Source: Symbiodinium natans (Eukaryota > Sar > Dinophyceae > Suessiales > Symbiodiniaceae). Taken from it: a DNA stretch of 64,000 bases. The translations under genes were made by a program, and so were the position numbers. The DNA lies in NCBI GenBank assembly GCA_905221605.1, contig CAJNDS010002113.1:895001-959000 (forward strand), written 5' to 3'. Position 1 is the stretch's first letter. The number at the start of each line of letters is the position of its first letter. The notes beneath the pieces were generated by a model that had not been told where the DNA came from, did no database searches, and saw nothing but the letters and a program-made list of their open reading frames with translations. Shown piece after piece: positions 2,130-59,242 of this stretch.

Positions 2130-2308
2130 ATGATTGGCGCGCCGCCCGCACTCCCGCCGCGGCCTCCTGGCGGAGCCCCTCCTGCAGGCGTTCCCTTCCG
2201 AGCGGGGTCCGACCTCCCGCCCGCTGGGCAGCGCCGCAAGACTCCGGCGGGCGCGCCGGCGGACATCAACCATGGGCCCATGGGCAAAGATCGCCCGGAC
2301 CACCTGTG
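2130..2308 (+). CDS. Exon E1, Pro-rich N-terminus (start codon)
   Basis: GC-rich open frame starting at ATG 2130 and beginning MIGAPPALPPRPPGG. It is proline/glycine-rich at first, then charged (DRPDHLW). It is taken as the first coding exon because the frame joins E2 exactly if an inverted-repeat element with a GGTCG target duplication is removed (donor GTCGCT). Spliced, it continues DHLW-SVLHQRED. An overlapping ATG frame at 2134 is judged a shadow. The family is not recognised. Confidence 0.6.
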
Positions 2309-2411
2309 GTCGCTTAGGGGTACTTGAAAATCATTTTCAATTTTCGGGTACTCTCTTTCCGAAGAAACAGCAAAAGCTCTAATTTTTGCTGGGTGTCCAA
2401 GTTCAGTATAG
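2309..2411 (+). mobile_element. Introner-like element, family D
   Basis: A sequence of about 98 bp is flanked by the 5-bp duplication GGTCG (2308-2312 and 2411-2415). Its right part (TAATTTTTGCTGGG, then CCAAGTTCAGTAT) recurs at about 36745-36773. Removing it from the second base of each GGTCG gives a GT...AG intron and a continuous frame between E1 and E2. Confidence 0.6.
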
Positions 2412-2433
2412 GTCGGTGCTGCACCAGCGCGAG
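2412..2433 (+). CDS. Exon E2, first part
   Basis: Reads VLHQRE after completing the Trp codon split with E1. It is interrupted by a CCCTAAA array flanked by a 13-bp exon duplication. A GA donor (GACTCT) in the first copy and GAG|G in the second copy rejoin the exon exactly. Confidence 0.55.
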
Positions 2434-2532
2434 GACTCTAAACCCTAAACCCTAAACCCTAAACCCTAAACCCTAAGCCCTAAACCCTAAACCCTAAACC
2501 CTAAACCCTAAACCCCTAAAGCGCGAGGACTC
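2426..2532. repeat. CCCTAAA array inserted in exon E2, 13-bp duplication
   Basis: AGCGCGAGGACTC occurs at 2426-2438 and 2520-2532, with about 81 bp of CCCTAAA repeat (2439-2519) between. The duplicated bases belong to one open frame (QREDSLPP), so the array lies inside a former continuous exon. Confidence 0.85.
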
Positions 2533-2626
2533 GCTGCCTCCGAACCGGCCCGGTCGGCCCAGGTCGAGGGATGACCATGTGACGGGCCGCGAGAGCCGGA
2601 GCTTACCCAGCCGGCCGGATGAACTG
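2528..2626 (+). CDS. Exon E2, second part
   Basis: 33 codons, beginning DSLPPNRPGRPRSRDD and ending SRPDEL; Arg/Pro-rich. It ends in phase 0 at a GA donor (GAGCCT) inside the first copy of a GGAGC duplication. Splicing to E3 gives PDEL-EQLPPLQ. Confidence 0.6.
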
Positions 2627-2630
2627 GAGC

Positions 2631-2869
2631 CTTGGTGGAGGGTTTAGGGTTTAGGGTTTAGGGTTTAGGGTTTAGGGTTTAGGGTTTAGGGTTTAGGGTT
2701 TAGGGTTTAGGGTTTAGGGTTTAGGGTTTAGGGTTTAGGGTTTAGGCCCAGGGGTACCCTTTGCCTCGTACTTTTTTTTTTTTTGGTTCTGGGCTTCCTT
2801 TGTAACATCTTATACAGCATCTGAACAAGAAAGGGTACCCTGATTATAAGATGGTTACTAAGCTACCAA
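2631..2869 (+). mobile_element. Introner C copy 1 with nested TTTAGGG array
   Basis: It is flanked by GGAGC duplications (2626-2630, 2870-2874). The left terminus CTTGGT is split from its continuation GCCCAGGGGTACCC by a TTTAGGG array of about 105 bp (2640-2745). The right terminus is ACTAAGCTACCAA. A poly-T tract lies inside. It forms the whole E2-E3 intron. Confidence 0.7.
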
Positions 2870-2870
2870 G

Positions 2871-2928
2871 GAGCAGCTGCCGCCTCTGCAGGCACCCTTC
2901 CCCTACCAAAACCCCCTGCCACCCATTG
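2871..2928 (+). CDS. Exon E3, Pro/Gln-rich
   Basis: It begins EQLPPLQAPFPYQ and ends LPPI plus one base. It is bounded on both sides by introner C copies. The donor is GC (GCTGCT) inside a GGCTG duplication, and one leftover base joins GC at the start of E4 to make a Gly codon. Confidence 0.6.
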
Positions 2929-2932
2929 GCTG

Positions 2933-3038
2933 CTTGGTAGCCCAGTGGTACCCTTTTCCTTTTTTTTTTTTTTTTCTCTGGGTTCCCTTAAACCAAAAAA
3001 AGAGGGTGCCCCTATGATAATATGGTTTCTGGTACCAA
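2933..3038 (+). mobile_element. Introner C copy 2
   Basis: It is flanked by GGCTG at 2928-2932 and 3039-3043. Termini are CTTGGTAGCCCAGTGGTACC and GTTTCTGGTACCAA, with poly-T inside. It has no telomere array. It constitutes the E3-E4 intron with a GC...AG boundary. Confidence 0.75.
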
Positions 3039-56703: not shown

Positions 56704-56849
56704 GTGAGAACCCCCGAACCCTAAACCCTACCCGAAACCCTAAATCCTAAAGTTTCGGGAGCTCGGAAGCGAAGTTCAAGCAGGGCCGAGGGCCCCTGAA
56801 CCCTCTAAGCCCTCAGCCCCTGAAGCCCGAGAACGACAGACCTCCCCAG

Positions 56850-56932
56850 GCCCTACCTGGAATGTTGTGCCTGCTGTTCAGACGCAACGCTCCCTTCTGA
56901 GGCTGCAGACTTCGGATGAGGAGTGCAAGAAG
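56850..56932 (+). CDS. Exon E61
   Basis: Reads PTWNVVPAVQTQRSLLRLQT, then SDEECKK, after two bases of a split Cys. CCCAG|G acceptor; GT donor (GTGGGG) into a poly-G tract (56935-56970). E60 and E61 together total 165 nt, an exact 55 codons. Confidence 0.75.
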
Positions 56933-57135
56933 GTGGGGGGGGGGGGTGGGGGGGGGGAGGGGGGGGGGGGGAAAGGGGTTGAATTTCCTAAAGCCGAAGG
57001 CCTAAACCCTATGACCTATGAACCCGAAGTCCCTAAGCCCTACACAAGCCTCGGAACCCCGCGTTTCAGTCGGAGTTTCCTGAACCCGAACACAAACAAA
57101 CGCCAGACGACCGCAAAGCGACCGCTCCGCCGCAG
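56933..57135. other. Intron E61-E62, poly-G start, few repeats
   Basis: Poly-G with T/A interruptions, then unique text, making this one of the few introns without a telomere array. Confidence 0.7.
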
Positions 57136-57186
57136 GCCCTCGCGACGCAGGAGGAGCGCGCGCAGGCCAAGGAGAGGGAGCTGCAG
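57136..57186 (+). CDS. Exon E62, coiled coil
   Basis: 17 codons in phase 0: ALATQEERAQAKERELQ. CGCAG|G acceptor; GA donor (GACCGG, identical hexamer to E29). Confidence 0.75.
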
Positions 57187-57760
57187 GACCGGCCTGATCC
57201 AGTGTTGTGGTTTTTTTGGCGTTTAGCGCTTTTGGGTTTGTAGGGCTTATAGGATTACAGGGCTTCGGGTTAGGGTTTAGGGTTTTGAGCGTTCAGTGTT
57301 TTTGGGTTTAGGGTTTAGGGTTTTTGGGTTATAGGGATATTCGGTCAGGGTTTGGAGTTCTGAAGGGCTTTTGCTGTTCATATCTTCCGCCAGGTAGCTA
57401 TAGGGCGGGGGGGAGGGGGGGACCAGTAAATCTCGAACACCGTCCTCGCCCTAAACCCTAAACCCTAAGCCCTAAACCCTAAACCCTAAACCGTAAACCC
57501 TATATCATGGCAGGGCAGCAGGTGTCATGCCGCGCAGCCTGTACCCTGAGCCGCGTGCACCCCAGGCAATGGGCCAAACCCCTCAAAAGACCCTAAACCC
57601 TACGGCGTACATCGAACCGAAAATCCAGAGTACAGTAGAGGGAAGCTAGGACAAATCAGACATTCTGCCCTGCCACAAGCCCAAAGCCCTGAATCCTAAA
57701 CCCGAAGCCCCAAACCCTAAACCCCAAACCCCAAACCCCCTAAACCTGAAACTGCCATAG
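57187..57760. repeat. Intron E62-E63
   Basis: TTTAGGG at 57273-57335, poly-G at 57405-57420, CCCTAAA at 57450-57505 and 57700-57745. Confidence 0.8.
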
Positions 57761-57808
57761 GACAGCCTTGCAGATGCCCAGAAGTCGAGCGCTGCCTTGG
57801 CGGAGAAG
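57761..57808 (+). CDS. Exon E63, coiled coil
   Basis: 16 codons in phase 0: DSLADAQKSSAALAEK. CATAG|G acceptor; GT donor (GTGGCC). Confidence 0.75.
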
Positions 57809-58462
57809 GTGGCCCTCGCCAGGTTGATCGTTTAATTTAGGGTTTAGGGTTTAGGTTTTAGAGTTCAGGGTTTAGGGTTTAGGGTTTAGGGTTTAGGGCG
57901 TTTTTTTGTTGGCGCGACCCATCCTCGACCGAGACCCTGTAGTATAGGGAGACTGTTTGCGGTTTAGGGTTCAGGGTTTAGGCTTTAGGCTTTGGGCTTT
58001 GGGCTTCAGGCTTTAGTAGCAAGTTTAGGGGTTTTAGGGTTTACATATAGCTGTGGTTTACATAATCCCCCAATCCGTACATGGGAGCTTACGAAAACAA
58101 GGGACCCCTAATACAGACCCCCAAATAGTTGGATTCCCTTAAAAAATAGAGACCCCAAGAAGGTACCCCAAACCCTAACCCTAAACCCTAAACCCTAAGC
58201 CCTAAACCCTAAACCCTAAACCCTAAACCTGAACCCTGAACAGGGTTTAGTGTTTAGGGTTTAGTGTTTAGGGTTGCGGGTTTAGGGTTTAGGTCTAGGG
58301 TTTAGGTTTAGGGGTTTAGGGTTTATACAGCCCAAGGCAATATTTAAAATAGTATCCGGACTCAAGTCTTCGGGTGTTAGGTTTTGGGTCTCGAGGGTCT
58401 GGAGTCTAGGGTGTCGGGTTTAGGGGTTGATGCAAATCCTATTAGCTCGCGGCTCGGATCAG
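57809..58462. repeat. Intron E63-E64
   Basis: TTTAGGG at 57836-57900 and 57960-58015. A fragment at 58070-58165 is shared with 25828-25910. CCCTAAA at 58165-58240 turns directly into TTTAGGG (58243-58330). Confidence 0.85.
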
Positions 58463-58513
58463 GTGGAAGCTGTGCAGAAGATGTCGGAGCAAGCCCAGTC
58501 TGAGGCCGCAAGG
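58463..58513 (+). CDS. Exon E64, coiled coil
   Basis: 17 codons in phase 0: VEAVQKMSEQAQSEAAR. ATCAG|G acceptor; GT donor (GTTGGG) into a G-rich tract (58515-58585). Confidence 0.75.
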
Positions 58514-59182
58514 GTTGGGAGGGGAGGGGGGGAGGGGGGAGGCGGGAGGGGGGGGGGGGGGGGGGGGGGGAGGGGGGGGGGGGCGAGGCGGGCAGATCAG
58601 GGTTAACGGTGCTCGGGTAAGTGCCCCTAAACCCGAAATTTCGGGTTTGGAGTTTAGGGCTCAAGGCTAAGGGCTTAGGGTTTATAGGGGTTAAGGTAGT
58701 ATCTTTGATTCCTGAATTTGGCCAGGGAGGGGATGTCCGTGGGCGTTCCAGCTCAGTGCAAGCGCCCAGCTTTGGATTTGAGCTTCTGGGGGTTTGGTGG
58801 GCTTGCGGCTGATCCTTCCCCCTTTGAGAGTGGCGGCCGTTTATTCCGTTTGGTGGGGCCGGGGGGGGGGGGGGGGGGGGGGGGGTTTAGGGGCAAAAGG
58901 CTGAACAGAATGATGACGCTCTACGCCCCGAGCCACAATCTATAATCTGAACCTCAACCACCAAAAGCCCTAAACCCATGATCATCAGGCCCCTACCCAA
59001 GGCGCTCAAAACCCAGTACATACCCCAAGCCCGAACCTAGCAAGCCATGATCCCTGAACTGCGGAACGCTGAGTTTTGGGTTTCGGGTTGATTCCCTAAA
59101 CCCTACACCCTACACCCTAAACCCTAAACCCTAAACCCTAAACCCTAAACCCCTCGGGCCCTGAGTCCAGCGCCTTCTTCAG
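58514..59182. repeat. Intron E64-E65
   Basis: Poly-G at 58515-58585 and 58860-58886. Unique text with no recognised product between. CCCTAAA at 59096-59152. Confidence 0.8.
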
Positions 59183-59242
59183 GCAGCCGTCGCTCGGGAG
59201 TCCATCGCACAAGCTGCCGCCACGGCTGAGGCCGAGAAGAAG
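59183..59242 (+). CDS. Exon E65, coiled coil (last seen)
   Basis: 20 codons in phase 0: AAVARESIAQAAATAEAEKK. TTCAG|G acceptor; GC donor (GCAGGG, same hexamer as E31). No stop codon is reached, so the gene should continue, but no similar exon is seen to the right. Confidence 0.75.

Follow-up and report, generated by a model that had tools for sequence, protein, structure and literature searches.

Introner elements of dinoflagellates are reportedly the subject of a paper by Roy (2023, Curr Biol). Their anatomy, a direct repeat combined with an inverted repeat, is outlined in the available portions of PMC7789003 and PMC10666404, which contain no mention of telomere repeats in introns. Interstitial telomeric sequences are inserted at double-strand breaks, with a duplication recorded at 6 of the 130 loci in rodents and 4 of the 25 in primates (PMC2246262, accessible part). 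The ends of Oxytricha TBE elements start with CAAAACCCCAAAACCCC, i.e., the element is capped like a chromosome, and have an ANT target duplication (PMC4724952, accessible part). A fluorescence in situ hybridisation study of Karenia found interstitial telomere signals to be only rare. The present study deals with a 64,000-nucleotide (nt) stretch of the genome of Symbiodinium natans (contig CAJNDS010002113.1; hereafter, the window), where a gene for a coiled-coil protein is divided by introns rich in the telomere repeat TTTAGGG/CCCTAAA. The repeat arrays adjacent to exons have a distinct polarity, and some arrays are recognisable as later insertions; we consider it rather likely that telomere tracts invaded the ends of introner-derived introns through staggered breaks and that splicing kept the polarity.

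A preliminary description of the locus had supposed telomere-repeat introns on this scale to be undescribed, and the literature agrees with it: none appear in titles or abstracts among the matches listed (subscription papers and supplements lie outside this scope), the main text of the S. natans genome paper (PMC8045281), which describes long-read cDNA libraries, contains zero occurrences of "telomer", "TTTAGGG" or "introner", and such introns are unmentioned in the accessible text of papers on P. cordatum and Amoebophrya and of dinoflagellate reviews. The polarity and the insertion are new observations; the polarity, the duplications and the introner signature go beyond the preliminary description.

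Gene structure and related proteins

Introns were placed with the S. natans protein P0007 as a guide, a protein record (no S. natans transcript) named 'Ank2' and originating from a 1,539,731-nt contig. Spliced in this way, the window from 5472 to 59242 yields 997 residues, 997/997 identical to P0007, across 54 junctions; since the introns were fitted to this protein, the weight of the match rests on the unbroken identity across the junctions. By this match, the DNA belongs to S. natans or to a strain nearly identical to it. Protein P0001 (1,656 amino acids), whose 5,010-nt contig is presumably a transcript because the 1,656-residue frame fills it, has 76% identity over spliced residues 1–700, and a separate fitting of P0001 recovered 44 of the 53 P0007 introns at identical coordinates; the nine remaining introns are located at small exons unanchored by P0001 or in the divergent block 50713–58462. 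A protein search with residues 1–700, in which the best 8000 candidates by shared words were scored, revealed 17 proteins at E < 0.001, seven of them covering at least 92%; the coverage was 100% for P0004, 97% for P0010, 96% for P0001 and 87% for P0015, where all four belong to other dinoflagellates and the source names of P0004, P0010 and P0015 point to transcript assemblies. Transcript-type proteins, none from S. natans itself, thus join the islands, and the unity of the gene holds. P0001 also covers 99% of P0007 residues 700–1282, and both proteins extend about 280 amino acids past the last exon of the window, which means that the gene continues beyond it; no convincing further exon for these C-terminal residues was found at 59.4–64 kb. 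P0007 lacks the N-terminus present in P0001 and P0004, and one of its blocks differs from P0001. Protein homology shows that the islands are exons of a single gene, which encodes a coiled-coil protein conserved in dinoflagellates, with the following features:

2130–59242, +: gene (part) of a coiled-coil protein, S. natans 'Ank2', assigned by protein homology, start codon at 2130
2130–2308, +: exon 1, MIGAPPALPPRPP; the N-terminus of P0004 is MIGAPP, as at the window ATG 2130
52312–56686, +: uncertain block, where the P0001-like exons VQVKEEHERALEAEGALREG, AAQASQ and AAAQAAAQAQ and the P0007 exons 53981–54054 and 54811–54844 disagree

Outside the uncertain block there are 60 exons (3835 bases, median 56.5 nt, 6.7% of the span), and the block adds a few, so the earlier figures of more than 60 micro-exons and a coding share of roughly 6% were about right. 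The window contains one gap of 100 N (52924–53023). A chain of 63 islands obtained ab initio, with 18 of the 80 called islands excluded by hand, was translated without stops into 1,522 residues rich in A, E, Q, L and R, whose hydrophobic autocorrelation is positive at lags 3, 4, 7, 11, 14 and 18, typical of a coiled coil. The reading phase carried across neighbouring islands, from which a single coding sequence had been deduced, is weak as a proof: 811 of 3000 permutations of the island order equalled the true one, and the in-phase neighbours numbered 26 of 62, where 21.3 (standard deviation, SD, 3.7) would be expected. As phase continuity is non-significant, the single-gene claim, true by the protein match, rests on homology instead. 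Exon calls on the minus strand (61) were mostly the same islands with lower scores, as composition predicts, and an early gene-finder model, which strayed into junk exons, partly of intron-resident viral-like sequence, was dropped. A Pfam scan of P0001 and P0007 revealed no family above the cut-off and no ankyrin family up to E 0.1, so the name 'Ank2' is without support and looks wrong; the PDB search with P0001 found no match.

Introns and splice sites

Fifty-nine introns were counted, including 49 defined by P0007, nine by P0001 only and one (2309–2411) by reading; four of the 53 P0007 introns (50713–53980, 54055–54810, 54845–56621 and 57187–58462) were dropped or replaced by the P0001 version, and intron 2929–3039, read directly, stands outside all counts except the tally of 60 exons. 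All intron and array statistics refer to this one gene. The introns counted are:

+: 2309–2411, 2434–2527, 2627–2870, 3369–3515, 3603–4513, 4622–5384, 5481–5796, 5824–5972, 6034–6187, 6241–6555
+: 6635–7010, 7082–7917, 7978–9263, 9338–11483, 11569–11656, 11740–13912, 13969–14836, 14881–15344, 15376–16547, 16598–16873
+: 16937–17789, 17832–19426, 19469–20568, 20611–21240, 21307–22219, 22262–23963, 24054–25067, 25127–25689, 25751–26401, 26446–27854
+: 27916–29726, 29778–30100, 30146–30999, 31057–31250, 31296–31569, 31610–32776, 32835–34359, 34445–35732, 35768–36933, 37022–37373
+: 37445–38223, 38288–39163, 39211–39832, 39861–40902, 40960–43213, 43254–44505, 44550–46026, 46078–46761, 46819–48015, 48094–48797
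+: 48834–49333, 49388–49621, 49676–50658, 50713–52311, 56687–56901, 56933–57135, 57187–57760, 57809–58462, 58505–59182

The median intron size is 763 nt (range 88 to 2254, n = 59). The acceptor is AG|G in 59/59 introns, in agreement with the AG|G starts noticed earlier, with a fitting that favoured AG; the donors (GC 27, GA 19, GT 13) are within the GT/GC/GA set in 59/59, and such sites were also favoured by the fitting. Despite this preference, the protein match constrains the position and phase of an intron. Genome-wide, the donors of S. natans are GC 58, GT 23.6 and GA 18.4%, and the AGG acceptor makes up 97.1% (PMC10666404, available text); GC ranks first here too, and GA is more frequent here. 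The 53 P0007 introns comprise 37 of phase 0, six of phase 1 and ten of phase 2. The triplet AGG occurs 6.9 times per 100 nt after donors, 3.0 times in mid-intron and 0.74 times before acceptors (46 introns of at least 300 nt), and the first AGG past the last CCCTAAA array is the acceptor in 39/43.

Amount and polarity of the telomere arrays

Exact heptamers (TTTAGGG/CCCTAAA, all rotations) compose 27.7% of positions 2130–59242, against 0.45% in five base shuffles, and none are found inside the 60 checked exons, which confirms the reported alternation of islands and arrays. Within introns, exact heptamers account for 30% of bases, arrays for 40% and heptamers with at most one mismatch for 52%; repeats are indeed abundant, but the wording "mainly telomere repeat" was too strong. 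The heptamer cover per intron has a median of 32%, reaches at least 20% in 47/59 introns and is zero in one. With an array defined as at least 21 exact telomere bases, there are 209 arrays, 99 of them in the TTTAGGG sense (designated +, and CCCTAAA designated −). The last array is located at 59251–59363, and the arrays stop there while the protein relatives go on; the heptamer cover of 59400–64000 is 0.9%. Upstream of the start codon (1–2129) it is 28%, with arrays in both orientations.

In the 47 introns with at least two arrays, the first and last arrays are (+,−) in 32, (−,−) in nine, (+,+) in six and (−,+) in none, and permutation gives a mean of 11.7 (SD 3.0) for (+,−), with a maximum of 23 in 5000. 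Arrays at most 60 nt from a donor are + in 39/48 (p 1.5e-5), and those at most 60 nt from an acceptor are − in 43/47 (p 2.8e-9). At 40–60 nt after donors, TTTAGGG makes up 57% of bases and CCCTAAA 6%; at 40–60 nt before acceptors, CCCTAAA makes up 59% and TTTAGGG 5%. Gaps between arrays are (−,+) in 39/60 when they contain an exon and in 19/124 when they are exon-free (p 4e-11); exons have CCCTAAA to their left and TTTAGGG to their right, oriented like the telomeres of a chromosome fragment. Only exon-adjacent arrays are polarised in this way, and interior arrays show little bias; their sorted order (25 vs 15, with 618/5000 shuffles equally extreme) leaves selection unsupported. A general G-to-C skew of introns, considered as a cause of the polarity, was rejected as weak, with an interval including 0.

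Some arrays as later insertions

At least in part, the telomere tracts are later insertions, which can be seen from flanking duplications and interrupted elements:

5488–5602, +: TTTAGGG array, 23-nt flanking duplication (22/23) spanning donor 5480|5481
6917–7009, −: CCCTAAA array, 20-nt flanking duplication (18/20) spanning acceptor 7010|7011
34290–34351, −: CCCTAAA array, 22-nt identical duplication spanning acceptor 34359|34360
43268–43413, +: TTTAGGG array, 18-nt identical duplication spanning donor 43253|43254
28513–28564, −: mid-intron CCCTAAA array, 20-nt identical duplication, copies about 11 nt from the array edges
2639–2746, +: TTTAGGG array (108 nt, 100% matches), 8 nt inside the left end of the introner, intron 2627–2870
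27697–27830, −: CCCTAAA array by which a palindromic element is broken in its right arm; duplication GTACC
34681–34739, +: TTTAGGG array by which another palindromic element of this kind is broken in its left arm; duplication GTACTTA
36873–36902, −: short CCCTAAA tract breaking a third palindrome arm, ATAAGTACC duplication, found by eye and missed by the script
14491–14628, 16045–16177, 27534–27844, 34668–34860, 36790–36920, 48473–48590: palindromic dispersed element in introns, resembling a miniature inverted-repeat transposable element, with GAGGTTCATGGTACTTA arms (some outer limits set by eye)

Long duplications (12–23 nt) are present at six arrays, five of which have a duplication spanning a used splice site; in the four duplications situated at one intron end, the exon-side copy is the one used. 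A duplication score of at least 12 was reached by 5/209 arrays, against a mean of 0.28 (maximum 2) in 40 re-pairings, and a score of at least 9 by 3/103 clean arrays vs 0. A first duplication search, with loose masking, was noisy; the duplication of array 2435–2522 (12 nt), the sixth of these arrays, scored only 6 because of masking and 11 and 13 in two other scorings. The unequal lengths of the duplications (5–23 nt) speak against a fixed-stagger transposase and fit staggered breaks, as for mammalian interstitial telomeric sequences (PMC2246262, accessible part).

Filled and empty sites can also be compared, the pairs being sister copies within this genome and not orthologous loci. Without its array, the introner 2627–2870 aligns to the sister introner 2929–3039 with a score of 97 (maximum of 44 in 300 random stretches), and the sister represents the empty site for array 2639–2746. 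The arms of the palindromic element gave 11 matches at up to three mismatches, against 0.21 expected; two arms hold arrays while uninterrupted copies exist elsewhere in the window, and both are the only arrays (2/209) for which the script found a contiguous other copy.

Introner signature and a candidate new intron

Three introns are of particular relevance to the origin of the set:

2929–3039, +: intact introner without telomere array, also an intron of the gene, with GCTG duplication and CTTGGTAG...TACCAAG ends
2434–2527, +: intron with no content beyond a CCCTAAA array and a single copy of the 12-nt duplication GCGCGAGGACTC; at each end the duplication spans AG|G
11569–11656, +: intron of 88 nt, mostly CCCTAAA array (68 nt)

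The layout of intron 2929–3039 is GCTG + CTTGGTAGCCCAG ... TACCAAG + GCTG, and introner marks at both ends (GNNN duplication zone, CTT...AAG) are found in 6/59 introns in addition to it; a handful of introns are of introner origin. CTT is located at +5..+7 in 12/59 introns, against 0–3 at 19 other offsets, AAG terminates 10/59, and the two occur together in 6/59. Across the set, intron bases 2–4 match bases 2–4 of the next exon at frequencies of 0.76, 0.41 and 0.51, compared to 0.33, 0.27 and 0.30 after re-pairing (z 7.4 for the second base), and the excess of short direct duplication between intron start and next exon at positions 0–5 was reached by 0/400 re-pairings; because of this set-wide duplication, the remaining introns are presumably introner-derived as well. 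Direct repeats at the ab initio junctions are weak (mean 4.68 vs 4.21, SD 0.16), being in phase in 23.5/29 vs 0.61 permuted. By the published introner criterion, an exact 8-nt inverted repeat no more than 30 nt from each intron end, 4/59 introns qualify, which does not exceed chance (permuted mean 8.6), and the inverted complementarity of the non-telomeric ends of 56 introns (7.8 vs 7.36, SD 0.26) is not clearly beyond chance.

The protein relatives contain the stretch duplicated around intron 2434–2527 once (P0001 ...HHREDSQPP...), and, judging by the sequence, it seems that an array insertion split an exon and created this intron. Perhaps telomere tracts act as an intron-making mobile sequence in this dinoflagellate: insertion at a staggered break at AG|G would supply a CCCTAAA run free of AG and suited to a position before an acceptor, and would double the proto-splice site, exon insertions would be introns at once (2434–2527, probably 11569–11656), and further insertions would enlarge and polarise introns genome-wide; this generalisation is a tentative one, possible rather than probable.

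Origin of the polarity

If introner-derived introns were invaded by telomere tracts and splicing kept the polarity, the tracts would enter staggered breaks via telomerase, presumably, or via capture of telomere DNA, and those spanning a splice site would survive since, owing to the duplication, the exon side retains a splice site. TTTAGGG carries many AG|G acceptors and would be harmful ahead of the true acceptor, while CCCTAAAC, which is AG-free, C-rich and only loosely branch-point-like, would suit the site before it; past a donor, a CCCTAAA tract would make an acceptor of the duplicated AG|G that follows it, and a tract landing in an exon together with the duplicated AG|G could make a whole new intron, as may have happened at 2434–2527. 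Several findings weigh against this scheme. The polarity has exceptions (9/48 donor-side arrays are − and 4/47 acceptor-side arrays are +), and AGG shows no depletion downstream of internal CCCTAAA arrays (31.5 nt as the median, controls 34, p 0.42); the argument from cryptic acceptors is thereby weakened for positions away from the intron end. Strict yUnAy motifs occur 10–60 nt before the acceptor in only 13/59 introns, and CTAA[AC], present before the acceptor in 43/59, is largely a restatement of the array. Most arrays are without duplication (196/209 score below 5); of the 184 arrays in introns, 66 begin or end no more than 25 nt from a splice site, and half of the duplication excess near splice sites may be array placement anyway. 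Finally, the mid-intron element array at 34681 has inward polarity with no close splice site, fitting an element-end mechanism better, and the array start phases contain no clear signature of telomerase priming (chi-square by hand, p about 0.15 at 5′ and 0.05 at 3′).

Splicing selection on junction insertions is nevertheless favoured, the main rival being insertion chemistry at introner ends, where breaks or nicks would let telomerase extend the exon-side 3′ end and send TTTAGGG inward from both flanks. This chemistry, which we regard as the less probable cause, would account for the restriction of polarity to exon-adjacent arrays, the median distance of 21 nt between the nearest arrays and exon edges on both sides, the array 8 nt inside the introner end in 2627–2870, the same inward polarity at nearly the same site in three broken palindrome arms (one by eye) and the independent behaviour of the two intron ends; yet the array starts lack a clear priming phase, and the predicted close (+,−) pairs do not prevail, with six (+,−), four (−,+), seven (+,+) and four (−,−) within 30 nt. 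The arrays could also be terminal inverted repeats under selection for an RNA hairpin that joins the splice sites, and two folded introns, both picked for their (+,−) form, do give long stems (z −10.6 and −8.3), with 5′–3′ arm duplexes below −40 kcal/mol in 41/48 introns. However, an intron's own arms pair no better than the arms of other introns (−98.2 vs −98.1, SD 2.7), the arm lengths are uncorrelated (rho 0.07, p 0.64), pairing across exons is equally strong (−103), and pairing alone would permit the (−,+) arrangement, seen in 0/47; independent ends and the absence of a better own-arm match make a co-selected hairpin improbable despite the stable folds. It is scarcely credible that the arrays are random interstitial tracts of a subtelomeric region, or assembly noise, unrelated to introns: the sequence upstream of the start codon also contains 28% heptamers, but the 60 exons are free of them, the polarity follows the exons, the tracts are nearly absent after 59.4 kb though the protein relatives go on, and the exon order agrees with these relatives.

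Other sequences in the window and databases

Three introns contain open or partly open stretches:

41966–42302, +, intron 40960–43213: open stretch similar to Pfam RdRP_4 (E 7.2e-5, 22.3 bits vs cut-off 22), likely a fragment of an endogenous RNA-virus-like element
10293–11290, +, intron 9338–11483: partly open, of a texture unlike the rest; three pieces had no Pfam match above the cut-off; it may be viral or transposon debris
22347–22579, +, intron 22262–23963: open, showing the pattern CxxC...C...C (KCKKCKHNWSYVREGGCLNTKC); Pfam gave no match above the cut-off

Five IMG/VR contigs (L001–L005) have (TTTAGGG)n runs, one orientation each, and in four of these contigs another short run lies 108–109 nt away; they are unrelated to the finding. 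A single 176-nt query (5797–5972) found no match in phage records.

Comparison with known systems

The finding connects work on interstitial telomere insertion with work on intron gain, which are separate fields; should it apply generally, it would represent a further transposase-free route to new introns and would offer a natural experiment on how a spliceosome accepting GC, GA and GT donors finds intron ends. Yeast Y′ introns are located within subtelomeric elements rather than within telomere repeats. Going by the available text of PMC7789003 and PMC10666404, the locus shares with dinoflagellate introners short end duplications, non-canonical GC/GA donors, AG|G acceptors and, apparently, inverted-repeat ends in some introns; unlike in introners, intron ends at this locus consist mostly of telomere tracts, tens to hundreds of nt long, at least some of them inserted later, whose lengths at the two ends are independent. 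Telomere repeats in element ends are common to this locus and the Oxytricha TBE elements as presented in the accessible part of PMC4724952, but the polarity is opposite, so that it is the exons that look capped (a C-strand repeat at the outer left end, (−,+), is found in 0/47), and the duplications measure 5–23 nt instead of a fixed 3-nt ANT. The mammalian interstitial telomeric sequences resemble the arrays of this gene in having a tract at a broken site, sometimes with a target-site duplication; in the accessible part of PMC2246262 no splice-site link is named for them, whereas here many tracts are assembled in one gene, are polarised with respect to exons and, in one case, have apparently made an intron.

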